A stretch of 52,822 nt of DNA from Planctomycetota bacterium (GTDB taxonomy: Bacteria; Planctomycetota; Planctomycetia; Gemmatales; Gemmataceae), in contig JAIOPV010000160.1 in the NCBI GenBank assembly GCA_021413735.1, positions 1 to 52,822 of the forward strand. The letters run 5' to 3'. Shown one piece after another: positions 15,065 to 28,815 of the stretch (the first letter of the stretch is position 1; every line of letters begins with the position of its first letter). The position numbers and the translations under genes are program-made. A model generated the notes under the pieces. The model did not search any database, was not told the DNA's origin, and saw nothing but the letters and a program-made list of their open reading frames with translations.

Positions 15065-15080
15065 GGGAAGATCTCTTCAA
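15065..15080. repeat. Attachment site, left copy (displaced mutS2 end)
   Basis: GGGAAGATCTCTTCAA, identical to 28918-28933. In the minus-strand mutS2 frame the sequence leading out of the element reads V-E-E-I-F-P-V-stop, so a plausible ancestral mutS2 terminus is preserved here, detached from its gene. Confidence 0.85.
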
Positions 15081-15114
15081 CAAATACAAGTGTACACTAT
15101 CTCGATTTGACACG

Positions 15115-15138
15115 AAACCCTTGGAATTCCAAGGGTTT
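15115..15138. repeat. 24-bp perfect palindrome near the left end
   Basis: A perfect palindrome with two CTTGGAAT-type arms back to back around GAATTC, 35 bases inside the left att copy. The CTTGGAAT motif recurs at 15224-15275 and at 28816-28834, next to the other end. It is a possible recombinase or excisionase site; it could also act as a terminator because a T-run follows. Confidence 0.6.
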
Positions 15139-15223
15139 TTGCGTTGGTGACAGGCTCAAATTGTGGTGTTGCGGCGTGTGCGGCCGTTGCAAGAAACCCC
15201 TAGGAATCGTGGAATCGCTGGGA

Positions 15224-15275
15224 GTTTCTTGGAATACTTTGGAACGCGACTGGTTTCTTGGAATTCCTTGGAATG
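15224..15275. repeat. GTTTCTTGGAAT repeats, left end
   Basis: GTTTCTTGGAAT occurs at 15224-15235 and 15253-15264, followed by a further CTTGGAAT ending at 15275. The same 12-mer occurs at 28816-28827. Arrangement near both ends of an integrase-bearing element suggests arm-type binding sites. Confidence 0.6.
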
Positions 15276-15300
15276 CGAAAAAAACAAGGTGTTTTTCGCA
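15274..15300. terminator. Hairpin with A/T-rich stem
   Basis: TGCGAAAAA / TTTTTCGCA, 9-bp perfect stem with a 9-base loop. It lies beyond the terminator of the leftward small-gene operon and may shield the element end from read-through. Confidence 0.5.
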
Positions 15301-15317
15301 CGGGGGACAAACGAACA

Positions 15318-15338
15318 ACGCCCCGAACTTCGGGGCGT
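15318..15338. terminator. Terminator-like hairpin of the leftward small-gene operon
   Basis: ACGCCCCG / CGGGGCGT, 8-bp stem with a 5-base loop, about 30 bases after the stop of the 93-residue gene. No strong U-tract. Confidence 0.6.
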
Positions 15339-15369
15339 GTGGGTCGATCATCGGAAGCCAGTCGCGTTA

Positions 15370-15651
15370 TCATCCTCGCAGACCGTCGAGACGATGGAAC
15401 AGCGACACGCCACGTTCCGCCCGCTCCGCCATCGCTCGCATCTTGTCGAGCGTTCCTTGCATCGCTGGCGTGGGTTCGTCGGGCTTCTCGTCGGCGGTCT
15501 CGTCAAGATCAGCACCGGGGCCGCGTCGAGTGTGCTTCGACGCCGGCAGTGGGTACAGATCACGCACGCCAGGAGTATAGAAATCTGACCAGCACAAGCC
15601 ACGCGGACGGTTCACGGGTCGGGTTCCGCAGTGGCGACACATCGGTTTCAT
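15370..15651 (-). CDS. Small Cys-containing protein, CxxCGxxPVNRPRGLCW type
   Basis: 93 residues with MCRHCGTRPVNRPRGLCWSD at the N-terminus followed by FYTPGVRDLYP. I recall this pattern from small planctomycete proteins, often with a fourth Cys; here that position is Asp (CWSDF), so a full zinc site may be missing. The second half is charged and ends RMAERAERGVSLFHRLDG. The start has AAAGGA about six bases upstream. It is the last gene of the leftward small-gene operon that begins at 16835. No function is known to me. Confidence 0.7.
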   Translation of the reverse strand: MKPMCRHCGTRPVNRPRGLCWSDFYTPGVRDLYPLPASKHTRRGPGADLDETADEKPDEPTPAMQGTLDKMRAMAERAERGVSLFHRLDGLRG

Positions 15652-15681
15652 CGTCGTTCCTTTCGTGATTCTGGGAATGGA

Positions 15682-15706
15682 AACGGGAACCGTCGAGGTT
15701 CCCGTT
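15682..15706. terminator. Intercistronic hairpin
   Basis: AACGGGAACC / GGTTCCCGTT, perfect 10-bp stem with a 5-base loop, in the 79-base gap between two small genes. Confidence 0.6.
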
Positions 15707-15730
15707 GTGGTTGTCGATCATCGGCCGCGT

Positions 15731-15991
15731 TCACTTCCTCGCGTTGCTCACCAGATCGGCGTAGCGGACGGTTGCCCCTTCGAGCAGATCGGATAGGGCG
15801 ATAGATGATTCGCCAATCTCAAAGCTGGTGTTGCCGTTGCTGGAGTGACAGAGCTTCATCAGCGAATCGGTTCGCGGATCGTTAGCCAACGCCACGATTT
15901 CAGAGCGGACCTTGCAAACCCGAACGATCAGTTCGAGGAGCGCATCGGCCTCCGATGGTGCCTTACGGTTCGTCGTCTTTGCGGTCTTCAT
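15731..15991 (-). CDS. Hypothetical small protein of the element
   Basis: 86 residues from an ATG at 15991 that has GAGGA six bases upstream; an ATG two codons earlier overlaps that site. The sequence is mixed alpha/beta in character (ADALLELIVRVCKVRSEIVALANDP, then SSIALSDLLEGATVRYADLVS) with a basic N-terminus (KTAKTTNRK). I do not recognise a family. It belongs to the leftward operon of small genes, between two hairpins. Confidence 0.65.
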   Translation of the reverse strand: MKTAKTTNRKAPSEADALLELIVRVCKVRSEIVALANDPRTDSLMKLCHSSNGNTSFEIGESSIALSDLLEGATVRYADLVSNARK

Positions 15992-16016
15992 TGTCATTCC
16001 TCATGATGCCAGAGAA

Positions 16017-16040
16017 GGGGCCGCCGAAGTGGTCGGCCCC
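16017..16040. terminator. Intercistronic hairpin with CUUCGG in the transcribed strand
   Basis: GGGGCCG / CGGCCCC, 7-bp stem. On the minus-strand transcript the loop contains CUUCGG, shared with hairpins at 16356 and 21642. Confidence 0.55.
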
Positions 16041-16056
16041 GTGGTTGGGAACCGAA

Positions 16057-16326
16057 TCACTCCGCCGTCTCGACTCCGATCAGCTTGTTCGCAATGTCGA
16101 TCTCGTGACGGGCCGCCGTCCGCACGCTGTCGAATGTTCCCGAGCGCAAGAACTCATCGTTCTCCGCACACTCGTGAGCCGCCTCGACGCAACCGAGAAG
16201 GGTTCCCGTTGCACTCTTGAGAAAGCCAACGGCCGCCCACAGCTTGCGGGCTTCCGCGTTCGCCGCGTCTCGCTCCGCCTGCACCCGTGCCAGTTCCTCG
16301 CGATACAGTTTGAGAATGTCTTCCAC
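16057..16326 (-). CDS. Hypothetical coiled-coil protein of the element
   Basis: 89 residues from GTG at 16326, with GAGGA eight bases upstream. The first 40 residues are a likely helix or coiled coil (LKLYREELARVQAERDAANAEARKLWAAV), then a hydrophobic stretch FLKSATGTLLGC and an acidic tail. No family recognised. It lies in the leftward operon of small genes downstream of the divergent switch. Confidence 0.65.
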   Translation of the reverse strand: MEDILKLYREELARVQAERDAANAEARKLWAAVGFLKSATGTLLGCVEAAHECAENDEFLRSGTFDSVRTAARHEIDIANKLIGVETAE

Positions 16327-16355
16327 GGTCGTAATCCTCGAAGGTCGTTAAGGAA

Positions 16356-16378
16356 GGGCGGACCGAAGTGAACCGCCC
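16356..16378. terminator. Intercistronic hairpin with UUCG loop in the transcribed strand
   Basis: GGGCGG / CCGCCC, 6-bp stem; inside it the minus-strand RNA has AC-UUCG-GU, a UUCG tetraloop. It sits in the 64-base gap between the 90- and 89-residue genes. Confidence 0.55.
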
Positions 16379-16390
16379 GTTGAATCCGTC

Positions 16391-16663
16391 TCACGCCACA
16401 CGCGAACCGTCGTAAACCCTGAACCCGGCCGCACGCACCGACCGCGTTAGCAACCGCTTCCGGCGGTTGTCCGGGTAGATCGTCGGGACGTATCCGCCTC
16501 GCATCGACCGCGTGAAATCGTCCCACGTCCGGAACGCTGTCACCGCGTTCGTGATCGCGTCGAGGGGATGAACCCAGAGCCGCCCGCACACCGGGCAGCG
16601 GTCGCAGTTCTCCGAGCAAATACCACAGTCCTTGCACCGCGTTCCGCCAGTCGTCGCAATCAT
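16391..16663 (-). CDS. Small zinc-ribbon-like protein of the element
   Basis: 90 residues with CKDCGICSENCDRCPVCGRLW at positions 10-30, six cysteines in CxxCGxC and CxxCPxC order that could bind one or two zinc ions. The remainder is basic (YPDNRRKRLLTRSVRAAGFRVYDGSRVA), which suits nucleic-acid or protein binding. GGAGG lies eight bases before the ATG. It follows the 47-residue membrane protein in the leftward operon. Function unknown. Confidence 0.7.
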   Translation of the reverse strand: MIATTGGTRCKDCGICSENCDRCPVCGRLWVHPLDAITNAVTAFRTWDDFTRSMRGGYVPTIYPDNRRKRLLTRSVRAAGFRVYDGSRVA

Positions 16664-16691
16664 CCGACCGCCCTCCGTTCGTGGTTTCCGA

Positions 16692-16835
16692 TCACTTCAG
16701 AAGCGAGATACCCCACCACAGCCCGACCACCAGAACCGCGACCGCACCCGCAACCGAACCCGTCGCCGCACCAACCACAACCGCCGCCACTTGTGAGCCA
16801 CCCGCGAGCGTTGCGTTGCCGATGATGTTTCGCAT
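16692..16835 (-). CDS. 47-residue hydrophobic membrane protein
   Basis: A short open frame beginning MRNIIGNATLAGG at an ATG with GGGGA six bases upstream. Residues 15-45 are almost entirely Ala, Val, Gly and Leu (VAAVVVGAATGSVAGAVAVL then VVGLWWGISLL), one long or two short membrane helices, ending in Lys. It is the first gene of the leftward operon, directly under the promoter at 16881-16909. A small hydrophobic protein expressed from a phage-like switch could be a holin-like, superinfection-exclusion or toxin peptide; nothing in the sequence decides between these. Confidence 0.6.
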   Translation of the reverse strand: MRNIIGNATLAGGSQVAAVVVGAATGSVAGAVAVLVVGLWWGISLLK

Positions 16836-16880
16836 TTCGTTTCCCCGTTCGTTGTGTCCGTTGCATCCCTCGGCAACGGT

Positions 16881-16909
16881 ATCCTAGGTCTATTACCTAG
16901 GAGTTTCAA
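16881..16909 (-). promoter_or_regulatory. Leftward promoter of the divergent switch
   Basis: On the minus strand, TTGAAA (16909-16904), a 17-base spacer and TAGGAT (16886-16881) match a housekeeping-type promoter in 5 of 6 and 4 of 6 positions. Operator 1 covers most of the spacer and part of the -10 box, so binding there should block it. Confidence 0.6.
16883..16901. promoter_or_regulatory. Operator 1, CCTAGG inverted repeat
   Basis: CCTAGGTCTATTACCTAGG: a perfect 7-bp inverted repeat around five bases. It overlaps the leftward promoter. The neighbouring ribbon-helix-helix protein is the obvious candidate to bind it. Confidence 0.75.
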
Positions 16910-16917
16910 TACTGGTT

Positions 16918-16936
16918 CCTAGATTTTTTACCTAGG
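16918..16936. promoter_or_regulatory. Operator 2, CCTAGG inverted repeat
   Basis: CCTAGATTTTTTACCTAGG: the same 19-base layout with one arm imperfect, starting 35 bases after operator 1. It overlaps the expected -35 region of the rightward promoter. Confidence 0.7.
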
Positions 16937-16961
16937 CAATTATCAAGCCATGTGCTATGAT
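16933..16961 (+). promoter_or_regulatory. Rightward promoter of the RHH-alphaCTD gene
   Basis: TATGAT at 16956-16961 is a good -10 box. With a 17-base spacer the -35 would be TAGGCA (16933-16938), poor and overlapped by operator 2, as expected of a regulated promoter. The start ATG at 16994 has GAGGTG nine bases upstream. Confidence 0.55.
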
Positions 16962-16993
16962 GTGTTCAGACACGAACCGTGAGGTGAAATCAG

Positions 16994-17440
16994 ATGGCTA
17001 GAACGAAGGGGACTAGGCAACTCGGCGTTGAAGTGAGCGAATCGCTCTTGGATGAGTTCAAGGCGTTCTGTGAGAAGCGAGGGGAGAAGGTCCGGCATCA
17101 CTTGGAACTGGCGATCCGTCGGCATCTCGACAATCCGCCACTGCCTCTTGTGCCGCCCCCGCCCCCGGTGTTGCCCGCCCCCGCGTTGACATCCCCGCTC
17201 CCACCCATCACAGTTCCAGACAGCAAGCAACCTGCGAGCACGCTGAACACGCCGCTGCGGGAGATGAAGTTATCGGTGCGGACTCGTGGCAAACTTTCGC
17301 GAGCAGGAATCGCAACCGTGGGGGAACTCGCACAGCGAACGGCGGATGATTTGCTAGACCTGAAGCAATTCGGCATGACGGGACTCACGGAGGTTCGTGA
17401 GAGGTTGGCCAAATTGGGTTTGCACCTGAAGGGCGACTGA
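16994..17440 (+). CDS. Ribbon-helix-helix protein fused to an RNA polymerase alpha-CTD domain
   Basis: 148 residues in three parts. Residues 8-45 (RQLGVEVSESLLDEFKAFCE..., HHLELAIRRHL) look like a ribbon-helix-helix DNA-binding unit. Residues 48-76 are a proline-rich linker. Residues 84-146 match the RNA polymerase alpha-subunit C-terminal domain: PLREMKLSVRTRGKLSRAGI, TVGELAQRTADDLLDLKQFG, then LTEVRERLAKLGLHL. The residue equivalent to E. coli alpha R265 is kept (R96), while positions equivalent to N268, K298 and S299 are Gly, Thr and Gly. It is the only plus-strand gene in the element and faces the leftward operon across two 19-bp operators. It probably represses or activates through these sites; whether the alpha-CTD contacts DNA, sigma or polymerase is unknown. 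Confidence 0.85.
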   Translation: MARTKGTRQLGVEVSESLLDEFKAFCEKRGEKVRHHLELAIRRHLDNPPLPLVPPPPPVLPAPALTSPLPPITVPDSKQPASTLNTPLREMKLSVRTRGKLSRAGIATVGELAQRTADDLLDLKQFGMTGLTEVRERLAKLGLHLKGD

Positions 17441-17507
17441 GGTCAGATCGATCCGCTCGCGGAGTGTGGTGCAAGTGGCGAAGTGGAACAGGGATCGGAG
17501 AGTGAGG

Positions 17508-17617
17508 GTTGCAGAGGCGTTCGAGGCGTCGAGGTGTTGGTGCACAGGAAAGAAAAAGCATTTGCACAGTCGGGGGAAGCTGTTGCAGAGGCGTTCGAGG
17601 CGTCGAGGTGTTGGTGC
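17508..17617. repeat. Two identical 36-bp direct repeats
   Basis: Positions 17508-17543 and 17582-17617 are identical over 36 bases, 74 bases apart start to start. Each contains three spaced GAGG steps (CAGAGGCG, CGAGGCG, CGAGGTG). They lie in the 390-base non-coding stretch after the RHH-alphaCTD gene. Replication iterons, a packaging site, a regulatory site or a simple duplication are possible. Confidence 0.7.
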
Positions 17618-17725
17618 CGTTGCGATAACCCCACAACGGTCACCAGATGCGATAGGATCGCCGGAAGTGTGTTCGGACGTCCAAATCTGGCGAATGGACG
17701 GGGGTATACGATTCGCCTACGAAGA

Positions 17726-17752
17726 CACCCGCGAGGCATCACCTCGCGGGTG
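17726..17752. terminator. Bidirectional hairpin between convergent transcription units
   Basis: CACCCGCGAGG / CCTCGCGGGTG, perfect 11-bp stem with a 5-base loop. It separates the rightward RHH-alphaCTD gene from the long leftward operon ending at 17830. Confidence 0.65.
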
Positions 17753-17829
17753 CTTGTCATGGTGCCCGTTCCATTCACCACGACCCACGGCGCGGAGAGC
17801 ATCACGCCCAACCTGCGCCGTGTTGTCGA

Positions 17830-18006
17830 TCAGTACGCTTTCACCGCCGGCTTCCGCTTGCCCCGCTTCGGCTTCACCGGTTCTTCGCTGACGACGCTAT
17901 CGAACGCCGCCAACTTCCGTTCGGTCACCCGAACCGCCTCCGAGACGGTCGCGAATTCAAACTTCAGTTCCTCGAACGCCGCCCGCTCTTCCGTTGACAT
18001 CGCCAC
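17830..18006 (-). CDS. Small hypothetical protein with basic tail
   Basis: 58 residues from GTG at 18006, chosen because AAGGGG lies six bases upstream; an ATG two codons later (18000) is the alternative. A predicted helix (MSTEERAAFEELKFEFATVSEAVRVTERKLAAFDSVV) is followed by a lysine-rich tail (KPKRGKRKPAVKAY). No family recognised. It is the last gene of the long leftward operon of the element. Confidence 0.6.
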   Translation of the reverse strand: MAMSTEERAAFEELKFEFATVSEAVRVTERKLAAFDSVVSEEPVKPKRGKRKPAVKAY

Positions 18007-18038
18007 GGTAAACCCCTTCGTTGAGAACCCTGAACATC

Positions 18039-18059
18039 GGTAACGCACGTTGCGTTACC
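18039..18059. terminator. Intercistronic hairpin
   Basis: GGTAACGCA / TGCGTTACC, 9-bp stem with a 3-base loop, between the terminase small subunit gene and the 58-residue gene. Confidence 0.5.
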
Positions 18060-18112
18060 CGAACCAACACCACACCGATCAGGAACCAACGAGCAAAGGA
18101 GCCGGTTTCCGA

Positions 18113-18655
18113 TCAACTACCCACTCGCCGTGCCGCATCCTCAGCCCGTGCCGCCTGGATGCGATCCCGAAGCGCCGTCACCTTGTTCACGGGCTTGCTC
18201 GCAGCTTCGCTGACAGTCTCAACCCGCGAACGTGCCGCCGGGGTCAGTCCCAACTCACTCGCCAGTTGCTTCACCTTGTTCATCAGGTCCGAACGCCACT
18301 TCACCGCCGGGTGAACCTTCAGCACCTTCTCACCTGTGGGGCGAGAGTTCCTATCGAGGGCCGGAACCTCGATCATCAGCCCGTCAGCGTCGATCCGGGC
18401 CGACAGTGCTTCGAGGTCCGCGACCGCCACACAGAACGCCGCGAGGATGTCGCGGTCTGCGTGAGTTACGGTTCCGGCCGCCACCATCTCAGCCGTAATC
18501 CGCTTCCAGACCACACGGGCCGACTTGCCCAAATGCTTCGGCATCGTCGGAACGCCGAGCGTATACCGCGTGGTCGCACCCTTCGCGAACACTGGCGACG
18601 ATGCCGGCAGTGGTCGCATTTTCCAGCTTCCCGGTTTCGGTCCTCTGGCCGCCAT
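18113..18655 (-). CDS. Phage terminase small subunit, P27 family
   Basis: 180 residues. The N-terminus MAARGPKPGSWKMRPL is the basic opener of the family; the middle has KHLGKSARVVWKRITAEMVAAGTVTHADRDILAAFCVAVAD, and the C-terminal signature is HPAVKWRSDLMNKVKQLASELGLTPAARSRV. Small terminases recognise the packaging site on phage DNA and hand it to the large ATPase subunit. No large subunit, portal or capsid gene exists in the element. In phage satellites a lone small terminase redirects a helper phage's packaging; alternatively the head genes were lost. A good ribosome site (GGAAGG) precedes the ATG. Confidence 0.88.
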   Translation of the reverse strand: MAARGPKPGSWKMRPLPASSPVFAKGATTRYTLGVPTMPKHLGKSARVVWKRITAEMVAAGTVTHADRDILAAFCVAVADLEALSARIDADGLMIEVPALDRNSRPTGEKVLKVHPAVKWRSDLMNKVKQLASELGLTPAARSRVETVSEAASKPVNKVTALRDRIQAARAEDAARRVGS

Positions 18656-18786
18656 CCCATCACCTTCCCGCCTGTGGGGGAAAAAGTTATCGAAACCTGT
18701 TCACAAAAACTCAACGCTGGCGATACGGTACACTGAGGCATAATCGCCACAATCTAACCCCTATCCCCCTGTCATCCGTCGTTCCG

Positions 18787-19161
18787 TCATTTGTCCATGC
18801 CATTCAGCCGAAGCGCCGCGACCGCGACCGCGCCAACCGCCTCCGCGCTCATCGTGTCCGCGATTGTCTCCACATCACCCGACGTGAACAGCAACCGGCC
18901 CGACTCGTCGCACACAGAGCGTGTGAACATCTCCTCTTCGAGGTTGGGGAGATGAGGGTTCGCTACCATCCACTTCACGAGCTTCACACGCTCGACGGCG
19001 GTCGTCGCCCGGATGAGTAACCGCACGCCATCAACCACGATCTCGACGGGTTGCGGTCGGCGCTCTGTGTCGATGCCGGCCGCCTCTAACTCCGCCACTG
19101 CGATTGCCATCGTTCCATCGCCGTCACTGTCTCGCTTGTGCCGCTTCATCACGATCACCAT
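18787..19161 (-). CDS. Tail assembly chaperone-like protein
   Basis: 124 residues; the second half, EMFTRSVCDESGRLLFTSGD then VETIADTMSAEAVGAVAVAALRLNGM, matches the style of phage tail assembly chaperones (residues laid out as FxxxxxxCDExGxxLF..D...A..LNG). The first part (PVEIVVDGVRLLIRATTAVERVKLVKWM) resembles their N-terminal fold. The ATG overlaps the stop of the tape-measure gene by seven bases. In most phages this gene lies before the tape-measure gene; here it follows. An ATG four codons in is an alternative start. Confidence 0.6.
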   Translation of the reverse strand: MVIVMKRHKRDSDGDGTMAIAVAELEAAGIDTERRPQPVEIVVDGVRLLIRATTAVERVKLVKWMVANPHLPNLEEEMFTRSVCDESGRLLFTSGDVETIADTMSAEAVGAVAVAALRLNGMDK

Positions 19162-20324
19162 GCTTTCAGTTGGAGTGGTGCTTTGTCGCCACCACCGGCG
19201 ATGATCCGCAACGCTCCAAGCATCGCCTTTTGGAGTTCCACCTGCTGCTTGTTGTAATCGGCGAGCTTCCCCGAAGTTTCGTTTCGAGCAACGATGGAGT
19301 ACGCTTCCGTCGAGCCCTTTTGGAACGCTCCGCCGAGCTTGATTTCCTGTGGTAACTTCAGTTCACCGATTCCCTTTTTCGTGTTGTCGAACTTCGCCGC
19401 AATCGCGTCAAAATACGGGTCAACCTTTTTCACGCTGTCGCCCCAACCCGCAATCGCGTTCATCCCGTTCTCTCGCATCCTCCGACCAACCTCCGCCGTT
19501 TGGTCAAGGAACCCGTCCGCCGCCGCCGCCGCCTTACCCAACCAGTCGGGCCGGATGGCATCTGGAAGCGATTCACCTAACTCCGCGATTCCCTTCACGG
19601 CTTTCGCCACTTGTTGCAGGATCAGCGAAAGCCCCTCAACAATCACACCCGCCACAACCGAGATAACACCCGTGCCGGCTTTGATCGTATCCCAGACATA
19701 GGCGAACCCTTTGCCCACGCCTCGCAGAACGCCGAGTACAACATTCTGCATCGACAGGGATTCCGTGTTGATGTCGAGGATGTTTGCCACCCACTCACCA
19801 CCGGACGAAACCACGTCGAGGATTGCATCGGCAACATCGCCCGCAATTTCGGTTGCGACAAACGCCAGGGTTGAAAGCCCGTCGAGAACCTTCACAACGG
19901 TCGGCTCGACACGCTGCCAGAACCGCATGACGACGTTGGTGAGGTTCACGAGAACGGGCGCGACCGCGTTCGCCACTTTCTGAAGCGCATCCAGCCCGAC
20001 ACCCTTCAGCAGATTTAGCGAACCCTGGATAGCTCGAAGCGAACCGCGATCAGCACCGCGAGCCCGCAACGCGAGGTCGTCGAACGAACCCGCGATGTCG
20101 CCGATTGCTTTCTTCGCGAGCCCCGCCCCAATCCCGAACCCGATCCCCTTTGCGACACCGCCGCCAACCGCCTTTGCGACGGTTGCGAGCTTGCCCAAAT
20201 TCCCGCCAGCTTTCGCCGCGAACGTCTTCGTTTGCTGGTCAACCTTGTTGAGCCCAGACACAAGCCCGTCCGCGTTCGCGGAGAGAACCAGAACACCGGA
20301 ACCGATTGCGTTATTGCCCGCCAT
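19155..20324 (-). CDS. Phage tail tape-measure-like protein
   Basis: 389 residues beginning SGVLVLSANADGLVSGLNKV, the typical opening of short tape-measure proteins, then a long Ala/Gly/Val-rich region with alternating hydrophobic helices (AVGGGVAKGIGFGIGAGLAK, VIVEGLSLILQQVAKAVKGI). The C-terminus AFQKGSTEAYSIVARNETSG then NKQQVELQKAMLGALRII is of a kind I associate with planctomycete prophage tape-measure proteins. At 389 residues it would set only a short tail if it works as a ruler. Neighbours: a 307-residue possible structural protein before it and a chaperone-like gene after it. Confidence 0.7.
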   Translation of the reverse strand: MAGNNAIGSGVLVLSANADGLVSGLNKVDQQTKTFAAKAGGNLGKLATVAKAVGGGVAKGIGFGIGAGLAKKAIGDIAGSFDDLALRARGADRGSLRAIQGSLNLLKGVGLDALQKVANAVAPVLVNLTNVVMRFWQRVEPTVVKVLDGLSTLAFVATEIAGDVADAILDVVSSGGEWVANILDINTESLSMQNVVLGVLRGVGKGFAYVWDTIKAGTGVISVVAGVIVEGLSLILQQVAKAVKGIAELGESLPDAIRPDWLGKAAAAADGFLDQTAEVGRRMRENGMNAIAGWGDSVKKVDPYFDAIAAKFDNTKKGIGELKLPQEIKLGGAFQKGSTEAYSIVARNETSGKLADYNKQQVELQKAMLGALRIIAGGGDKAPLQLKAW

Positions 20325-20360
20325 TTGAACCCCGAGTATGAGCCGCCGAACCTGTCAGTT

Positions 20361-21284
20361 TCACAGAGGCACAAGCGTGTTGAAGTCAACTTGTCTGTAA
20401 CCCATGAACCTGAGATAGATTTCAGGGTTACCAATCGGGAGACGCATACCGGCCCCGTTGAGCGGAACGGGTTCCGTGATCGGATTAGCAGACGGGTCCA
20501 TGATTGGACGGAGCCCGGTCGCGTGTCCGAACGCGGAACCCAGATCGCCCTTTTCCCATGTCCCCGCGTCGAGAATCCTGAATATCCAGTTGTCGAACTT
20601 CACCGCGAACGTGTAACTGATTTGCCAGAACCAAACGCCGTTCTCAAATCCGGATTCAGCATCAATGCCGACGCAACGCACACACCGTGCGTCAAGCCCC
20701 ATCCACGGCTTTGAGTTCACCGCGTCTTGAGTCTGCGCGATATACGACATGTTCAGGCGGGGAACGTTCTTGGTCGCCGTGATGAGTGGTCGCGAAACCT
20801 CGATTGTTGGTGGCGGATCGAACAGGAACCCGGCGGAATTCTTCACGGGCTTCGAGCCGGGAATCTGGTTGTCGTTGTCATCCAAGAGGTAGGATCGCCG
20901 TAGAACCTCCGTCGTCTGCTGATATGTGATCTTCCACTTCACAGGGCGGAGTAGCGGATTCTCCGGGATATCACCCGCGTCGAGTCCGTCGTCTTCGTCC
21001 GGGGACATCTTTAAATCGAGTTCAGTATCGTAACCAATGGTTACGATCCACCGGCGCGGTTGGTCATTGTCTTGCATCGGCCGAACCGACGTGCACAGCG
21101 CGAATACATCGCCGGGGTATGCGCTGCCGAGACGCGGAAGCAATGGACATGAACCAACCGTGATTACGTTGTCATTGTCGCTGTCCGTCAGCACCTCGAA
21201 GGTGCGAACGTATGTCCGGTGTCGCTTGAACGTGTCTTCACCCGTCCGCCCCTCGAACAACTCGTTGACGTAGGTAACCGCCAT
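20361..21284 (-). CDS. Unrecognised phage-type structural protein candidate
   Basis: 307 residues from the ATG at 21284, which has GGGAG eight bases upstream. The protein is rich in beta-type segments and aromatic residues (PVKWKITYQQTTEVLRRSYL, FENGVWFWQISYTFAVKFDN) with an Asp-rich loop. It could be a tail tube, baseplate or fibre protein by position, directly before the tape-measure-like gene and in the same operon. I do not recognise a named family. An upstream reading to 21362 overlaps the preceding gene and lacks a ribosome site. Confidence 0.65.
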   Translation of the reverse strand: MAVTYVNELFEGRTGEDTFKRHRTYVRTFEVLTDSDNDNVITVGSCPLLPRLGSAYPGDVFALCTSVRPMQDNDQPRRWIVTIGYDTELDLKMSPDEDDGLDAGDIPENPLLRPVKWKITYQQTTEVLRRSYLLDDNDNQIPGSKPVKNSAGFLFDPPPTIEVSRPLITATKNVPRLNMSYIAQTQDAVNSKPWMGLDARCVRCVGIDAESGFENGVWFWQISYTFAVKFDNWIFRILDAGTWEKGDLGSAFGHATGLRPIMDPSANPITEPVPLNGAGMRLPIGNPEIYLRFMGYRQVDFNTLVPL

Positions 21285-21345
21285 TCGCTTCGCTCCCCGT
21301 TGTGTTCCGATTCGCCGACCCAATTCCACCCGCCGCCCGATCACC

Positions 21346-21621
21346 TCACCGCATTGCGTCATTGACTTCGGCTACCGTCAACAATCCCGCCGACACCCAA
21401 CGGCCAAAGTGCTTTTCTGCAATCTCCGGGTTGAGTGGCATCTCTTCCAGAATCGGAGCCGCGACCGCGAGAAGGCTTCCGAGATTCTTCGCCACCGTCG
21501 CCGCCGACTTCGCTTCCATCGCCAGCTTTACTGCCCGGACGTTCGCCATAGCAGATTCGCGGAGTGCGGCCAACATTGCCCGTTCGCTCTCCGCCACCGC
21601 TTCCGCCTTCTCGTTCGTCAT
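21346..21621 (-). CDS. Hypothetical Ala-rich helical protein
   Basis: 91 residues from an ATG with AAAGGCGAG upstream. The first 65 residues form an alanine- and glutamate-rich helical stretch (EKAEAVAESERAMLAALRESAMANVRAVKLAMEAKS); the end reads PEIAEKHFGRWVSAGLLTVAEVNDAMR. No recognised family. It precedes the putative structural gene and may be a small scaffold or adaptor, but this is only position-based. Confidence 0.6.
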   Translation of the reverse strand: MTNEKAEAVAESERAMLAALRESAMANVRAVKLAMEAKSAATVAKNLGSLLAVAAPILEEMPLNPEIAEKHFGRWVSAGLLTVAEVNDAMR

Positions 21622-21641
21622 GCTCGCCTTTCGTGTTGGAA

Positions 21642-21661
21642 GCCCCGACCGAAGTCAGGGC
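21642..21661. terminator. Intercistronic UUCG hairpin
   Basis: The minus-strand RNA forms an 8-bp stem (one U-G pair) closed by the tetraloop C(UUCG)G family: GCCCUGAC-UUCG-GUCGGGGC. It lies in the 71-base gap between the 90- and 91-residue genes. Confidence 0.6.
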
Positions 21662-21673
21662 GGATCGTTCGCC

Positions 21674-21693
21674 AGTGACAACCCGCTGTCACT
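21674..21693. terminator. Hairpin at the stop of the 90-residue gene
   Basis: AGTGACA / TGTCACT, 7-bp stem with a 6-base loop, directly after (and touching) the stop codon. Confidence 0.4.
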
Positions 21694-21965
21694 CAGTTCA
21701 GCAGGAACACGAACCGCCAGTATCCCCACGATCCCGATTGAGGCGGATCGGTTGAGAGTGACCGCGTCCCGAGTCCCGACAGCAACTGCTGAATCTGGTT
21801 ATCGACGCTGATAGTGCTCTCGAACGCGCCATCCGGAACCGTCTGAAATTCGCCGCCCTTGGTCTGGCAGATCACGCCCGTAACGGTGTCCCCTGCCGTC
21901 GCCCCTGTGAGGGTGATTGCACCGGCACCAAGCCCACCGCGACCACTCGCTACAAGAACCTTCAT
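21693..21965 (-). CDS. Hypothetical Gly/Thr-rich beta protein
   Basis: 90 residues from an ATG with GAGGG seven bases upstream. Composition is Gly-, Thr- and Ser-rich with alternating hydrophobics (AGAITLTGATAGDTVTGVIC, SVDNQIQQLLSGLG) and an aromatic C-terminus (SGSWGYWRFVFLLN), suggesting a beta-structured particle or adhesion component. No family recognised. Confidence 0.6.
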   Translation of the reverse strand: MKVLVASGRGGLGAGAITLTGATAGDTVTGVICQTKGGEFQTVPDGAFESTISVDNQIQQLLSGLGTRSLSTDPPQSGSWGYWRFVFLLN

Positions 21966-22030
21966 CGTTCACCCTCGCTTGCTGTGACAGGAAACCCGGC
22001 GCGACGTTGCACCGGGTGAAGTCGGCCCGA

Positions 22031-22768
22031 TTAGATGTCGATGCCTTCGATGTCGGACGCCGCGAGCGTCTTGTCCGCGATGAGTCGGCCGAGTTCGTTC
22101 CGAATCTCGACGCGCTCCGCAACGGGGTAATGCGTGTGGAAAAGACACCCCTTGCCACTGCCACCCATGCCCACCAACCCGGCCGCCGTCAAAGCGTCTT
22201 CGATGTCGGAGTGTCGCTTGCGTGCCCGGATGAGTTCCAACCACGCCAACGCTTCCGCACGACGGGCCGGCACCACGAGTTCAGCGACCACTTGCGGAAG
22301 AATCTCCCGCCGAGCTTGTTCGATTGCCGGAGCGATGTCGGCCGCCGCCACCTTAACCGCCGCCGCAAGTTGCTTTTCACGCTTGCGGGCCGCCTCGATA
22401 CGGGCGATGGGTTCAATGTCCTTGCCGGCCGCCAGGAGTTCACCCGCCGCCGCGTCGAGATCGTCGGGCGTCGGGTCTTCCAGACCCAATCCCCGTTCCA
22501 GCAACCGACGCCCGCGCCGCTCATCTTCGAGTTGATCCACGAACCCCTGATGTCGGGCACGGGCCGCCTTCACCGTGTCGTTGTCCTCGACGGACGGGAT
22601 GCCAGTGATGGCCGCCACGATTCGCGGAGGTGGCATCGGTTCCGGGTCGGGGGCCGCCGGCCTCGTTGCACGTCGCACCGGGCGAACCGGCGGAGCAACC
22701 GCAACGGAGTCGGGAAGGGCTTCGTCGGACCAACCAGTATCGTTTTCATCGTTGACCACGATCATCAC
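22031..22768 (-). CDS. Hypothetical charged helical protein
   Basis: 245 residues from ATG 22768 (MIVVNDENDTGWSDE). A Pro/Arg-rich N-terminal segment (VAPPVRPVRRATRPAAPDPE) is followed by a long helical, charged middle (DNDTVKAARARHQGFVDQLE; AARKREKQLAAAVKVAAADI) and a tail with GMGGSGKGCLFHTHYPVAER. A scaffold- or head-to-tail-like role is possible by composition only. Longer readings upstream overlap the previous gene. No family recognised. Confidence 0.6.
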   Translation of the reverse strand: MMIVVNDENDTGWSDEALPDSVAVAPPVRPVRRATRPAAPDPEPMPPPRIVAAITGIPSVEDNDTVKAARARHQGFVDQLEDERRGRRLLERGLGLEDPTPDDLDAAAGELLAAGKDIEPIARIEAARKREKQLAAAVKVAAADIAPAIEQARREILPQVVAELVVPARRAEALAWLELIRARKRHSDIEDALTAAGLVGMGGSGKGCLFHTHYPVAERVEIRNELGRLIADKTLAASDIEGIDI

Positions 22769-22835
22769 TCCGAAAGAAAAATGTTCCGCTGCTGCTCCGG
22801 CGAAGTGCCAGAGCTTAGGGTTCGTGGTCTCGCAG

Positions 22836-23324
22836 TTAGTTCGCGAAACCAAGTTCGCCAACGGTGTCGACTTCGATGTCCAACACATCGAAGTCGTCAT
22901 CGAAGTAAGCCGCCTCGACAGGCCGCGAACGCTTCGGAGCCGAGCCGCCAAGAACCGCCGCGATCCGTGCTTGATCGGCCTCGCTCGCGGCCCTGCGAAG
23001 GTCTCGGGACATTCGCCGCATGTCCGCCGCGAGGGGCGAGTTTCCCCGCGTCTCGACGTTCGTGGGTCGGCCGGCCCGACGGATGTTTGCCCGCACATCA
23101 CACAGCGCGAACTTGGTTCCGTCTCGCCGTTGGATCGTCACCTTGCCGCTCGCCGTGCGTGGTTCATTCCGAACCAACCGGCAACGGTTCCGGAGCATCG
23201 TCGCCAACTCGCTATCGCCGGCCCGCTCCGCATCGGCGGCCACAGCTTCCAACTCGTCCGCGTGGTCATCCGCCGCGATCAGAAATCCGGCCCCACGTTG
23301 AACGCTTTCAAACACCGTTGCCAT
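22836..23324 (-). CDS. Hypothetical protein of the element
   Basis: 162 residues from ATG 23324 with GGGGGAA upstream. Features: an acidic helix (DHADELEAVAADAERAGDSELATML), an Arg-rich middle (NRCRLVRNEPRTASGKVTIQRRDGTKFALC) and a very acidic end (AAYFDDDFDVLDIEVDTVGE). Acidic C-termini are common in DNA-mimic or scaffold proteins, but no specific function is supported. It lies between the HTH gene and the 245-residue gene. Confidence 0.6.
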   Translation of the reverse strand: MATVFESVQRGAGFLIAADDHADELEAVAADAERAGDSELATMLRNRCRLVRNEPRTASGKVTIQRRDGTKFALCDVRANIRRAGRPTNVETRGNSPLAADMRRMSRDLRRAASEADQARIAAVLGGSAPKRSRPVEAAYFDDDFDVLDIEVDTVGELGFAN

Positions 23325-23358
23325 TCGTTCCCCCAAGTTGTGCGGCATCGGCCGCGAG

Positions 23359-23580
23359 CTACCGAGACTCGACAATCCTGCCACCGCGAACGCTTCGCCC
23401 GGCCGTGTTGAGCCATTCCAAAACCAAAGCCCTCGGCCAGCGAACGAGAGCGCCGAGCCGAACCGGTGCGATGAGTTCGCCACGTCGCACCAAAGCCCGA
23501 ACATGGTTCGGCGAACACTGCAAAAGCTGTGCAACCTGCTCAGTGTCGAGTACCGCCGAACCTTCTGTTACCGCGTTCAT
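23359..23580 (-). CDS. Excisionase-like helix-turn-helix protein
   Basis: 73 residues from ATG 23580 with GAGGG upstream. TEQVAQLLQCSPNHVRALVR is a MerR/excisionase-type helix-turn-helix followed by RGELIAPVRLGALVRWPRALVLEWL, the wing and third helix of the AlpA/Xis-like HTH_17 fold. It could direct excision with the integrase or regulate transcription. It follows the sigma-factor gene after a 146-base gap that contains a 28-bp perfect palindrome. Confidence 0.75.
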   Translation of the reverse strand: MNAVTEGSAVLDTEQVAQLLQCSPNHVRALVRRGELIAPVRLGALVRWPRALVLEWLNTAGRSVRGGRIVESR

Positions 23581-23670
23581 GTGCCGCCCTCGGTTGCCCC
23601 GTGTCACTCTGTGTGTCGCGGTGGTACGCCTACTCCTTTGCACAAACTCGCCCCGCTCTCTCACCAGCGA

Positions 23671-23698
23671 CCACGCCACGGAAATTTCCGTGGCGTGG
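23671..23698. repeat. 28-bp perfect palindrome between sigma and HTH genes
   Basis: Two 14-base arms meeting at AAATTT (CCACGCCACGGAAA and its complement). It could be an operator for the excisionase-like protein encoded just downstream, or a terminator of the upstream operon segment. Confidence 0.6.
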
Positions 23699-23726
23699 GT
23701 GAAGTGCTTCGAGTTGTCGCGATGAG

Positions 23727-24296
23727 TCACCGCGTGCCAGCGCGGGAGTCGTTGCACACCCTGCGTGCCCCGGTCTTCCTCGACGGCTTCACCTGTTCAT
23801 CACCTTCGCCCAGAATCTTCGCCGCCTGTTGCAATCGGCGTCTGATCGTTTCGAGGCTCGTTCCAGTCAGATGGCCGATATCGCGGAGATCGTACTTGTG
23901 AACGTAAAATAGATTAACGGCATCTCTCAGATCGTGCGGCAGATCGCGCACCGCCAGGGGCAACGTCGGGCCGTAGCTGCCCCGATCCGGGGCCGGCAGT
24001 GCTTCTGTGATTTCCTCATGTGCCGGCCTCGTGGCAAACCGGTGTCGCTCGCGGGCAAGAGTACGACGAATCCACATTCGGGCCGCCGCTGCCGCGAACG
24101 CTACGAACGTCCCAAGCGACGGGTTCCACTTCTTCAACGCCCACATCACAGCATCAACCGAAGCATCGCGGGCAGCCTCGCGGAGCTTCGGTTCTTTCGC
24201 GAGGTTGTTTGCGATGCCTTCTACATACCGCAACGCCGCTTTGATCTGCTCATCAGTCGGCCGATTTGTCGCATCCGCTGCCGTGCCTGCCGCCAT
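23727..24296 (-). CDS. RNA polymerase sigma factor (sigma-70 family, ECF-like)
   Basis: 189 residues. Region 2: ALRYVEGIANNLAKEPKLRE then ASVDAVMWALKKWNPSLGTF and VAFAAAAARMWIRRTLARER. Region 4: LPHDLRDAVNLFYVHKYDLR then DIGHLTGTSLETIRRRLQQAAKIL, a clear helix-turn-helix. The layout is that of short sigma factors carried by planctomycetes and some phages. It lies between the DnaB-like helicase and the HTH gene, so it could drive the late block downstream. GAGG lies upstream of the ATG. No anti-sigma gene is recognisable nearby. Confidence 0.8.
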   Translation of the reverse strand: MAAGTAADATNRPTDEQIKAALRYVEGIANNLAKEPKLREAARDASVDAVMWALKKWNPSLGTFVAFAAAAARMWIRRTLARERHRFATRPAHEEITEALPAPDRGSYGPTLPLAVRDLPHDLRDAVNLFYVHKYDLRDIGHLTGTSLETIRRRLQQAAKILGEGDEQVKPSRKTGARRVCNDSRAGTR

Positions 24297-24314
24297 GTGC
24301 TTAACCTCGTCGGG

Positions 24315-24350
24315 TGTCGGGACGCTCGTCCTTTGCGCTCCGTCCCGACA
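24315..24350. terminator. Intercistronic hairpin
   Basis: TGTCGGGACG / CGTCCCGACA, perfect 10-bp stem with a 16-base loop, between the helicase and the sigma-factor gene. Confidence 0.55.
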
Positions 24351-24357
24351 GTGACTT

Positions 24358-25710
24358 TCACCGTGGCGAGTTCTCGAACCGCGTGATCGTTCGCCGATAC
24401 GCCAACGTCAGTTCCCCCGTCGGGCCGCTCCGATTCTTTGCGATGATGCAATCGGTTGCCCACACTGGCGATTCTGGGGGTTGATCGGGTTGCGGGTTCA
24501 GCAGCAGAACCGCGTCGGCGTGCGCCTCGATCTCACCCGATTCCCGAAGGTCCGACAGTTTTGGCTTGCCGCCCGTGCGGTTCTCGGCTTCGCGGTTGAG
24601 TTGAGCCAGGAGCAACACCGGTACATTGCACGCGCGGGCGAGTTGTTTCACACGTCGGGCGATGGTGCCGACTTGCAAGTGTCGCGGATCGCGCTCGTTC
24701 TCCGGCCGCATGAGTTGCAGGTAGTCCACAACCACCAGTTTCACACCGCGACGACGAACCGCACGGCGAACGATTGCCGCGAGACGGGCCGCCGTGAGGT
24801 CGGGCGCGTCGTCCACCTCCAACGGTTCGCCCCGGAGTTTAGCAGCAGCATCACACACGGCGGCGCTGTGGTGTTCGTTGAGTTGCCCAGACTGGATCAT
24901 GCGAAGGGGAACGCCACTCCGCACGGCGAACAGTCGATCCGTGATTTCCGTAGCCGACATTTCGAGTGATGCGAACAGCACCGGGAAACCAGATGCCGCG
25001 ACGTTCGACGCGATACCGAGAGCGAGTGCCGTTTTGCCACAACCGGGGCGAGCGCCGACTACGATCAGTTGGCCAGCTTTCAAACCCGCAAGGTACGAAT
25101 CGAGTTCACAGAACCCGGTTTCCAATCCGTCGGGGCCACTCCGACTAGAACGGTCGTCAATCCGGGCGAGCCCATCACGGACGAGAACATCGGCAGAGCG
25201 TGGGCCGCTTGCCGCAATGTCCTGTTCACCCTCGGCGAACAATAACGCCTCACACTCCGCGAGGATGTCGGCCGCCGGTCGCCCCGAATCACGAACCCGC
25301 GCCGCGATCTCAACCGCGACGTGCCGGAGCTTCCGAACCCTCGCCGCCTCTTTCACCCGGCCCGCGAGGTAGTCGGCCATTGTGTCGCCGGGAACCTCGG
25401 AGATGAGGTCGAAGAACCAACCCGCCGGACGGTGCCCCAACTCAACCGCCGTACCATCTCCCGACATCCGTTCGTGAACGGTCACCGCCGTCACCGGGGA
25501 ATTCTCTTCCCGCAAGGCGAGCATTGTTTTGAACACCAACCCGTGAGCGTGAACGGCGAAGTCGGCTACGGTCACAATTTCAGCCGCCCTATCCAGCCCG
25601 TCGCCGTTGCGTGTGTCGCTCCACAGACAAGCCCCGAGCAAGTGCCGCTCAATGCCGGTTGCCCGGTCAACGTCATTCGCACAATCCCGAAACGTCTCAG
25701 TTGCGACCAC
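24358..25710 (-). CDS. DnaB-like replicative helicase
   Basis: 450 residues in the DnaB layout: N-terminal helical domain (about 15-160; ERHLLGACLW, DFAVHAHGLVFKTMLAL), then a RecA-fold ATPase with Walker A GARPGCGKTAL (219-229), FASLEMSATEITDRLFA, Walker B KLVVVDYLQLM (Asp 329) and LLAQLNREAENRTGGKPKLSDLRESGEIEAHAD. It would unwind the replication fork of the element. It begins at GTG and overlaps the replication initiator-like gene by 14 bases. The host dnaB is expected elsewhere, so this copy suggests autonomous replication of the excised element. Confidence 0.88.
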   Translation of the reverse strand: MVATETFRDCANDVDRATGIERHLLGACLWSDTRNGDGLDRAAEIVTVADFAVHAHGLVFKTMLALREENSPVTAVTVHERMSGDGTAVELGHRPAGWFFDLISEVPGDTMADYLAGRVKEAARVRKLRHVAVEIAARVRDSGRPAADILAECEALLFAEGEQDIAASGPRSADVLVRDGLARIDDRSSRSGPDGLETGFCELDSYLAGLKAGQLIVVGARPGCGKTALALGIASNVAASGFPVLFASLEMSATEITDRLFAVRSGVPLRMIQSGQLNEHHSAAVCDAAAKLRGEPLEVDDAPDLTAARLAAIVRRAVRRRGVKLVVVDYLQLMRPENERDPRHLQVGTIARRVKQLARACNVPVLLLAQLNREAENRTGGKPKLSDLRESGEIEAHADAVLLLNPQPDQPPESPVWATDCIIAKNRSGPTGELTLAYRRTITRFENSPR

Positions 25711-26584
25711 AGCCAGCCCCCGCGAGTTGTGAGAGATATTCCGGGTTCAGCATCGGGTTGTCCGATGCCCGCTTGATCCGCGTTGCTTCACCCGGCGGCC
25801 CGACCGTTCGAGGCGGTTCGTCTTCCCATCGGCGAGCATTGAGCCACGGGCCCGGATGCTTCCACGCCTGCCATTCCTGTTTCGCTGCCTTGTATCGTTC
25901 CAACCCCGCGAGGATGTCGGCGAGCATCGTGTCGTCCACGTTGAGCTTGCCCCACGCCTTCATCGCTGCCGGCTTGTCCACGCGGTTCGGGTAGGCTTCC
26001 CAGAACTTCGCGAACATCGGGCAAGCATCCGGTGCCGACCGCTTCGGTTTCGGATCGGGTTTTGGTTTTGTCTCCGGGGTCTGTTCCTTCACCACCTCCA
26101 CGGCGACAGCCGGGGGGTATTTGGTAAGGGAAAGGGATAGGGAAGAATGTGGCTCACATTCCGTCCGGATTCCGTCCGCTTGTCGGTGGGATTCTGGCTC
26201 ACCCTGAGCCACTATCCCGCCAGAAAGCGAACCCGCCCGCTCATCACCGGGGACGTCATCCAACCCATCCGCCCACGCTGGTACCGTCACGAAGTAACGG
26301 GCCGCGCGTCCCTTCGCACCGGGTTCGTAGTTCAACCATCCGGCCTCGACCGCCTTGTCTCGGAGACGCTTCATTCCCGCGAGGCTCAGCCCGGTTCGCG
26401 TTGCGAGGTCATCGTTGAAGAACGTCACCGCCCGCCGATAGCCGGCCGCGTCTTCAGTGTTCACGATGAACGCCAAGAGCCAGCAAGCATCGGGGCCGAT
26501 GTCGCCGCCAAGACACACCTTCCCCATCAGCCGGCAAAATTTGTGGGCGAAGAACCTCGGACGTTCCGGGTAGACGCTGTTCAC
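25697..26584 (-). CDS. Replication initiator/helicase-loader-like protein
   Basis: 295 residues from a GTG at 26584 that overlaps the preceding small gene's stop (GTGA). N-terminal winged-helix region: FAHKFCRLMGKVCLGGDIG then DACWLLAFIVNTED, and FFNDDLATRTGLSLAGMKRL then RDKAVEAGWLNYEPGAKGRAARYF. A Pro/Lys linker (TKPKPDPKPKRSAP) leads to FAKFWEAYPNRVDKPAAMKAW, the C-terminal module found in phage O-like and DnaT-like proteins. It probably binds the element origin and loads the DnaB-like helicase encoded next. Confidence 0.75.
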   Translation of the reverse strand: MNSVYPERPRFFAHKFCRLMGKVCLGGDIGPDACWLLAFIVNTEDAAGYRRAVTFFNDDLATRTGLSLAGMKRLRDKAVEAGWLNYEPGAKGRAARYFVTVPAWADGLDDVPGDERAGSLSGGIVAQGEPESHRQADGIRTECEPHSSLSLSLTKYPPAVAVEVVKEQTPETKPKPDPKPKRSAPDACPMFAKFWEAYPNRVDKPAAMKAWGKLNVDDTMLADILAGLERYKAAKQEWQAWKHPGPWLNARRWEDEPPRTVGPPGEATRIKRASDNPMLNPEYLSQLAGAGCGRN

Positions 26585-26865
26585 CGGGTCACCCCTTCCG
26601 CGAGGCATCCCCACCGCGAGACGATGTAATCTCGGAACGGTCCCGCCCGCGCGACTACTGCCGGCCGCGTCGAGTACGACGGAACCGGATCGGCTGCACA
26701 CCTCCGAGCGAACTCAGCCGCAAGCCCGCCCACGAACGGAACCACAACGGGCTTCCTGATTCGTGGATGATTTGCTCTTGCGCTTTTCTTCCCCGTCTGG
26801 GATGATGTCGTCCGCATTAACGCTCGCAGTTGCCCCGGCCGGTTTACGCACCGACACGGAGTCAT
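26581..26865 (-). CDS. Small hypothetical protein coupled to the replication gene
   Basis: 94 residues, basic (TGKKSARANHPRIRKPVVVPF), with LAAEFARRCAADPVPSYSTR and FRDYIVSRWGC in the second half. Support is mainly positional: its TGA overlaps the GTG of the replication gene as GTGA. An ATG at 26817 would shorten it by 16 residues. No family recognised. Confidence 0.5.
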   Translation of the reverse strand: MTPCRCVNRPGQLRALMRTTSSQTGKKSARANHPRIRKPVVVPFVGGLAAEFARRCAADPVPSYSTRPAVVARAGPFRDYIVSRWGCLAEGVTR

Positions 26866-26898
26866 CGGTTCAGGGTCCGAAAGAAACGGGTTGAGTTC

Positions 26899-26946
26899 AC
26901 ACAGCGAGGTGGTTCCGGAGTGGCATCCGGAACCACCTCGCTGTGT
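26899..26946. terminator. Strong hairpin with a 21-bp perfect stem
   Basis: Arms 26899-26919 and 26926-26946 are perfectly complementary around the loop GTGGCA. It lies one base after the stop of the DUF1580-like gene and before the replication genes. It lacks a long U-tract on the transcribed strand, so it may partly terminate, protect RNA ends or act as a replication or packaging structure. Confidence 0.65.
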
Positions 26947-26947
26947 T

Positions 26948-27268: not shown

Positions 27269-27423
27269 TCTGCCCCTTTGGGTTGGATCGTTGCACCGTG
27301 TGCAACCTGTCACCTATTCCTTTGCAGTTGGACCCCTCAAAAAAATTTCCGCGCGTGTGCCGCGCGGAGTGAAATTGTGTTCACATCTGAATTTGTGTGT
27401 AGATTGAGGTGGGGAACGAAATA
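27269..27423. other. Upstream region of the leftward replication operon
   Basis: 155 bases without a gene, AT-richer than its surroundings (a run of A/T near 27340-27350). It should hold the promoter of the DUF1580-like gene and the replication block, but I cannot name clear -35 and -10 boxes. Confidence 0.35.
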
Positions 27424-27453
27424 ACCCCGGCAGCGAACCAACGCTGCCGGGGT
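27424..27453. terminator. Terminator hairpin after the integrase
   Basis: ACCCCGGCAGCG / CGCTGCCGGGGT, perfect 12-bp stem with a 6-base loop, 49 bases beyond the integrase stop on the minus strand. Confidence 0.7.
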
Positions 27454-27501
27454 CGAAGTGTTTGAGGTCGTGTCAAGCCGGGTTGTCGAGGTGTTCGAGG
27501 C

Positions 27502-28803: not shown

Positions 28804-28815
28804 TGGTGCAACCGG

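Follow-up and report, generated by a model that had tools for sequence, protein, structure and literature searches.

A small putative regulator joining a ribbon-helix-helix-like domain to an RNA polymerase alpha C-terminal domain on a prophage-like element of Gemmataceae

Bacterial activators often reach out to the C-terminal domain of the RNA polymerase alpha subunit (alpha-CTD), a domain that binds UP DNA or touches sigma via residue 261 and its neighbours, and whose DNA-contact residues are R265, N268, C269, G296, K298, S299 and E302. Ribbon-helix-helix (RHH) domains are common in antitoxins and ParG-type partition proteins. They also occur in small repressors of mobile elements, for which we take the Arc/Mnt/CopG type as the comparison group, and there too an RHH-type DNA-binding domain is paired with short palindromic boxes over promoters. 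We know of no small RHH repressor of a mobile element that carries an alpha-CTD. Here we describe a gene from a bacterium of the family Gemmataceae (Planctomycetota) whose product joins an RHH-like domain to an alpha-CTD through a proline-rich linker. First-pass annotation of the DNA had proposed this domain order as an uncharacterised architecture, and the literature that we searched, at abstract level and with partial coverage, held no description of an RHH/Pro-linker/alpha-CTD protein. The window analysed is a stretch of 52,822 nucleotides, the entire contig C182 of an assembly of 9.8 Mb in 293 contigs that is 95.7% complete.

The open reading frame (16994-17440, plus strand) starts with ATG and encodes 148 amino acids. 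Reading frame, Pfam, AlphaFold2 and structure matches together divide the product into an RHH-like domain (residues 1-48, 16994-17137), a Pro-rich linker common to a family of RHH relatives (residues 49-79, 17138-17230) and the alpha-CTD (residues 83-148, 17240-17437). The alpha-CTD is confirmed. Pfam RNA_pol_A_CTD (PF03118) matches residues 81-139 at 2e-14 and 53.5 bits (cut-off 23.8), and the best eight NCBIfam matches are alpha-subunit models, all C-terminal (5.4e-15 to 1e-9), with BREX PglW among the weaker ones (9.6e-5); PHROGs gave a best E of 0.38. AlphaFold2 was run on an 18-row alignment of the protein, two RHH relatives and 15 viral alpha-CTDs and returned a mean pLDDT of 83.6, with block means of 94-97 over residues 91-148, a compact C-terminal domain and a low-confidence linker, whereas the single-sequence prediction was poor (pLDDT 47). 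The predicted C-terminal domain matches the E. coli alpha-CTD (VIA; Z 13.9, rmsd 1.0 A, 67 residues), and Foldseek retrieved alpha-CTD structures with it (best E 3.7e-6), and the predicted fold is of the (HhH)2 type. The fold and the Pfam match are shared with RNA polymerase alpha, but the N-terminal assembly domain (alpha-NTD) is absent from the 148 residues and four of the seven contact residues differ. Without an alpha-NTD the protein is not an RNA polymerase subunit; an alpha-like gene is present elsewhere in the same genome.

The N-terminal half is an RHH-like domain, on weaker evidence than that for the alpha-CTD half. Pfam places no DNA-binding family over the N-terminus of the protein. 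AlphaFold2 predicts helices at residues 16-29 and 33-46 (block pLDDT 81-95 over residues 11-50), two helices where an RHH unit has its own pair, with no strand at residues 8-14, before helix 16-29, in the monomer model. The N-terminal strand of RHH proteins is formed in the dimer only, whose intertwined subunits place a sheet of two strands in the major groove. The structure search list was filled by alpha-CTD entries, and a missing RHH row in the VIA list says nothing against an RHH fold. Structure prediction had been named in the first-pass annotation as the check on both halves; it delivered the alpha-CTD fold and the two RHH helices, and left residues 8-14 without a strand in the monomer. 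The proposed order of the two domains and the proline-rich linker between them are supported.

The N-terminal half belongs to a family of Gemmataceae proteins. Four further genes with a related N-terminus occur in the same genome, on contigs C164, C165, C241 and C156, and a 19-member profile gave 29 matches in 14 of 95 Gemmataceae genomes, in 4 of 39 genera, a patchy spread such as is expected for mobile genes. The relatives are 32-69% identical to the 148-aa protein across domain and linker. They end in a short Lys/Arg-rich basic tail after the Pro-rich linker in 20 of the 20 other members read, a count that leaves the C-termini of two members (L073 and L075) aside. Linker and repeated palindromic operator are thus common to the family and the 148-aa protein, but the latter has an alpha-CTD in place of the basic tail; its alpha-CTD starts just past a KQPA motif that is common to the L059/L062 copy of the family. 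When the family profile was compared with the PDB, the top match was a designed repeat protein (8ugc, 1.5e-4), without any stretch passing alone. A CopG-family RHH protein (9kkd) followed weakly at E 0.014, and the viral protein 2kel, which we take to be an RHH protein, appeared at E 0.45 amid unrelated chains. The hhalign probability for the profile against the 9kkd stretch, which was picked because it was already a match, was 94%. Single members gave weak matches to the CopG_antitoxin, Omega_Repress and BrnA models, and a phmmer search of the PDB with one RHH domain gave no match. In contrast to the small RHH repressors of other mobile elements, this branch is barely visible to Pfam RHH models, as RHH_1 was found weakly in 2 of 19 family members (best 0.079) and the 148-aa protein alone had no match.

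The alpha-CTD resembles a domain of another protein of the host more closely than it does the polymerase subunit. The other alpha-CTD genes of the genome encode a 469-aa TPR protein with two alpha-CTDs, the alpha subunit and a MoxR-like ATPase, and the alpha-CTD of the 148-aa protein is 59% identical to the second domain of the TPR protein and 44% identical to RpoA. In a 62-row tree a branch with support of 98/97 parts RpoA and TPR domain 1 from it and leaves it among domain-2 rows and three other odd alpha-CTDs, without finer placement; the tree is rough, with 66 columns only, a bootstrap that had not settled and a long branch (0.95) leading to our domain. Capture from RpoA was rejected, as the rough tree sides the domain with the second TPR alpha-CTD. 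An assembly chimera was rejected as well, since the domain is no copy of any other stretch found in the genome, the next best being 59% identical. The likeliest route, which we infer, is that TPR domain 2 was captured onto the linker end and replaced the basic tail. Across 19 genomes of the genus, the 148-aa reading frame is the shortest with an alpha-CTD match, the next being 243 aa. Two alpha-CTDs were seen in all 26 loci of the TPR-protein type (L003, L012, L013, L015-L037), of which the first keeps N268 and C269 and the second has K268. The TPR region was read with Pfam in L003 only (304-1713), where the two alpha-CTDs are C-terminal and the neighbouring gene is presumably tgt-like. An AAA ATPase that we take to be MoxR-like (L007, 640-1716) carries a C-terminal RpoA-type alpha-CTD, and a separate 101-aa alpha-CTD protein (L040, 1480-1785; G029:C79) is placed by the tree on the side of TPR domain 2.

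Aligned with E. coli K-12 rpoA, the 148-aa protein keeps three of the seven DNA-contact residues (R265, G296 and E302) and has G at 268, K at 269, T at 298 and G at 299, which bears out the first-pass statement that the key arginine is retained while other contact residues differ. At position 261 it has K instead of the E of E. coli. The host RpoA itself has T at both 298 and 299. TPR domain 2 reads R265, K268, C269, G296, T298, S299 and E302 in 21 of 21 sequences, so that the 148-aa protein, which shares its side of the supported branch and lacks the TPR region, has altered three positions (G268, K269 and G299) that are invariant in that group. The net charge of the alpha-CTD is +4 in the 148-aa protein; the 15 RpoA-type domains examined from Gemmataceae range from -2 to 0, the E. 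coli domain has +1 and TPR domain 2 has +2 to +4.

The full-length fusion appears to be rare. Searches with the 148-aa query detected it in a single genome, always the source genome, out of 95 in the family, 102 in the order (E 1e-15), 397 sampled from the class and 392 sampled from the phylum (E 1e-19). For class and phylum the best 9-10 candidates per genome were scored, and the strict E limits used for order, class and phylum would miss a diverged fusion. The search for the same domain order in other planctomycete elements, which the first-pass annotation had called for, gave no second example at these limits. Three partial candidates were rejected, two (G016:C84 and G046:C116) being basic-tailed family members whose match runs past the stop and the third (G029:C79) the separate alpha-CTD protein mentioned above. 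Beyond the phylum, the search covered phages, plasmids and viral_contigs only. Matches came from 22 phage and 55 plasmid records, all of them short of 80% query coverage, and among the 20 best rows of each collection the matches took in the alpha-CTD half only. The viral_contigs searches yielded no fusion like the 148-aa protein, and a scan of that collection with an actinobacterial alpha-CTD was unproductive.

A different kind of alpha-CTD fusion did emerge from viral_contigs. A Firmicute alpha-CTD query matched 22 viral contigs, and in 13 of the 16 that were scanned Sigma70_r4 lies upstream of the alpha-CTD (L101 583-1821, L106 1027-1698, L109-L113, L115-L119 and L121), with an additional Cro/C1-type helix-turn-helix in five of the 13. 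The viral status of these contigs rests on the collection label. Eight aligned members keep RSYNCLKR, which includes R265, N268 and C269. These proteins look like phage regulators and share with the 148-aa protein the order of a DNA-binding domain followed by a C-terminal alpha-CTD, but theirs is sigma-70 region 4, with the further helix-turn-helix in five, whereas the 148-aa protein has an RHH-like domain. In the phages collection, three of eight alpha-CTD records examined (L128, L131 and L132) are ordinary full-length alpha subunits. Among predicted viral structures (BFVD) the top match was a 128-aa uncultured phage protein (148 columns including gaps, 19% identity, rmsd 17); this alignment exceeds the alpha-CTD, yet the domains do not superpose together. 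Matches of 128-135 aa in this set include A0A6J5MNY7, A0A6J5L490, A0A6J5M7I6 and A0A6J5QDR9. Two other arrangements were noted: a 138-aa protein on a viral contig (L083, 2492-2908) in which the alpha-CTD comes first and is followed by a Pro-rich linker and a Cys-containing tail, and a P22 NinX domain joined to a weak alpha-CTD match (2.1e-5) in Morganella phage Mecenats66 (L126, 1141-1704).

The gene for the 148-aa protein lies on a 13.9-kb prophage-like element, in agreement with the mobile setting first proposed for it: an integrase, phage-type genes and att-like repeats are all present. The repeats are an exact 16-bp direct pair, the left copy at 15065-15080 and the right at 28918-28933, within the 3' end of a gene that is presumably mutS2-like (28908-30923). 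In 2000 random placements a shared 16-mer occurred 22 times, every time this same pair. A phage-type integrase (27502-28647, minus strand) lies near the right end, and a sigma-factor-like protein is encoded at 23727-24296 (minus strand; Sigma70_r4_2, 25.8 bits, cut-off 25.7). Between the repeats there are also a replication-initiation-like protein, a DnaB helicase, an HTH_17 protein, a tape-measure-like protein, a tail-assembly-chaperone-like protein and a small terminase. The 19 element genes scanned, 10 with Pfam and PHROGs and 9 small ones with Pfam alone, included none that could be recognised as a large terminase, portal or capsid, and many had no family. The element (15065-28933) is probably a phage satellite or a decayed prophage. 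The regulator is its only plus-strand gene, as called by a custom script. Diverging from it on the minus strand is a 47-aa hydrophobic product (16692-16835; best 19-residue mean 2.3), perhaps with one transmembrane helix, followed by four further small genes within 15370-16663 (16391-16663, 16057-16326, 15731-15991 and 15370-15651), for which no Pfam family scored above cut-off. Loci in two other genomes (L069 and L067) have parts of the gene set in common and retain a basic-tailed RHH-family gene beside divergent small genes; in L067 a sigma-like gene accompanies the basic-tailed regulator. Just downstream of the regulator gene is a perfect 36-bp direct repeat (17508-17543 and 17582-17617, 38 bp apart); a CRISPR-like reading of the pair was rejected, as 19 genomes held no other copy at up to 3 mismatches. 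Outside the element, a minus-strand gene that we take to be transposase-like (31072-32277) adjoins the mutS2-like gene.

Two putative operators lie between the regulator and the divergent genes, and they coincide exactly with the stretch, 16883-16936, that had been singled out for footprinting. O1 (16883-16901) reads CCTAGG-N7-CCTAGG and sits inside the spacer and -10 of a divergent promoter-like site (16881-16909, minus strand; TTGAAA-17-TAGGAT, 9 of 12 consensus matches) that leads into the 47-aa gene and then the four small genes. O2 (16918-16936) reads CCTAGA-N7-CCTAGG, and its second box, at 16931-16936, spans four of the six -35 bases of the regulator's own sigma-70-type promoter-like site (16933-16961, plus strand; TAGGCA-17-TATGAT with TG before the -10, 9 of 12 matches). 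Transcription from the regulator's own site would start near 16968, which puts the centre of O2, at 16927, at about -41, a position that we take to be lambda CI-like. A third promoter-like site runs from 16968 to 16939 on the minus strand. All promoters are consensus matches, and the three upstream of the regulator compare with a mean of 0.3 in shuffles. The pattern CCTAG-N8-CCTAGG occurs in two places in the whole assembly, both upstream of the regulator; the reversed pattern, used as a control, gave two forward and two reverse matches, so the sites are informative by their position, and their rarity by itself carries little weight. A wide regulon was rejected on the exact double site, the form counted genome-wide, which is nowhere else in the assembly.

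Similar boxes precede the relatives. The operator counts used the 140 bp before each of the 23 highest-ranking members, without the six weakest of the 29. A perfect 6-bp palindrome is present at least twice in 17 of these 23 upstreams, where 200 dinucleotide shuffles averaged 0.83 and never exceeded 4, and CTAG occurs 61 times in 3220 nt (18.9/kb versus 0.54/kb in the loci). These counts overstate independence, since L065/L066, L067/L069 and L063/L070/L072 are close copies. The palindromic words vary (CCTAGG, TCTAGA, ACTAGT) and are mostly CTAG-cored; by eye, L061 has CCAAGAG/CTCTTGG and L076 has CCAAGG/CTTGGGG. ACTAGT is found in four members with QFNYEI and TCTAGA in three with QLNLEI, each set being close relatives, but the idea that the recognition strand dictates the operator word was rejected, as L077 and L048 share QLGAEL yet have TCTAGA and CCTAGG. 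In 12 of 23 upstreams TGTCAA, the reversed -35, sits inside the span from the first CTAG to the last; in the window the word is TTTCAA. A scan for promoter-like pairs found them on both strands in 13 of 23 upstreams (mean 1.02 and maximum 4 in 50 shuffles). A box is overlapped by the divergent promoter-like site in 18 of 23 loci and by the own promoter-like site in 8 of 23, with the boxes of L061, L076 and L078 picked by eye; the scan of these 23 loci found no own promoter in nine and no divergent one in four. A CI-like prophage switch represses early genes and maintains lysogeny from operators that lie across a pair of divergent promoters in an integrated element. At the level of sequence the locus has this arrangement of operators, and the layout reads as the anatomy of a local, autoregulated switch. 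The overlap of the operators with the regulator's own -35 and with the divergent -10 and spacer points to repression first.

We give about an even chance to the explanation that we favour, in which the 148-aa protein is a lysogeny-type switch regulator of the prophage-like element and its alpha-CTD is an auxiliary nucleic-acid-binding tail. RHH dimers would bind the CCTAGG boxes within 16881-16961. Those at O1 would shut off the leftward small-gene operon by blocking its divergent promoter, and those at O2 would cover most of the regulator's own -35, giving autoregulation; the anatomy and the 22 homologous loci suggest that the divergent genes are repressed and the regulator's own level limited. 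The alpha-CTD would take the place of the family's short basic tail and, as an (HhH)2 unit of net charge +4, could strengthen or order binding over the operator. We consider it most likely a larger tail of this kind, and less likely a canonical UP-element or sigma-contacting domain, because it replaces the basic tail, is positively charged and has lost canonical contact positions. The proposal of the first-pass annotation that it acts as a movable UP-element or class I activation domain is doubtful, given its TPR-side affinity, the changes at 261, 268, 269 and 299 and the repression-like operators. Some considerations pull the other way: with R265, G296 and E302 retained, the domain may still have part of its alpha-CTD function; if the relatives can do with a basic tail, a folded alpha-CTD could have been kept for polymerase contact; and the TPR parent group reaches +2 to +4, so the charge is not unusual.

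In a less likely competitor the alpha-CTD truly contacts RNA polymerase, and the O2-bound protein recruits holoenzyme to its own promoter and shuts the divergent one, forming a self-activating lysogeny switch. The distance of O2 from the inferred start, the TG before TATGAT, the well-formed predicted fold, the three retained contact residues, the fusions of DNA-binding domains to alpha-CTDs on phage contigs and the element's own sigma-like protein all suit it. Yet CCTAGG over four of the six -35 bases would set binding in competition with sigma region 4, K261 and the altered 268, 269 and 299 fit poorly, the operator plan is common to basic-tailed relatives, and L067 pairs its sigma-like gene with a basic-tailed regulator. 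We hold to be more doubtful again a more elaborate version, in which RHH tethers a captured and re-tuned alpha-CTD that brings RNA polymerase to the regulator's own promoter, perhaps together with the sigma-like protein of the element, and the divergent early promoter is blocked at the same time; the protein would then be one of several fusions of an alpha-CTD to a DNA-binding domain that phages invented independently. A recently fused alpha-CTD without functional effect, with the RHH part doing all the work, is unlikely: occurrence in a single genome, the long branch and the three altered parent-invariant positions would fit, but the frame is open, the predicted fold is intact and 59% identity to the TPR domain is retained. 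An antitoxin or ParG-type partition protein, to which the weak CopG_antitoxin, Omega_Repress and BrnA matches of single family members might point, is very improbable, as the 19 element genes scanned, many of them without a family, showed no recognisable toxin or ParA family, the regulator is the only plus-strand gene called in the element, and the neighbours differ among relatives.

Whether as repressor with an auxiliary tail or otherwise, the protein means that a mobile element carries its own alpha-CTD-type domain, joined to a putative operator-binding domain. If the protein acts on RNA polymerase, its alpha-CTD would be a natural activation domain. An artificial counterpart, described in PMC9561276, joins dCas9 to parts of RNA polymerase, for instance alpha-NTD or omega. 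Even if the domain serves DNA binding only, the locus shows how such a domain can be taken up, in this case apparently from a TPR protein of the host, and can replace a basic tail, in what would be a compact two-operator switch in a poorly studied phylum.
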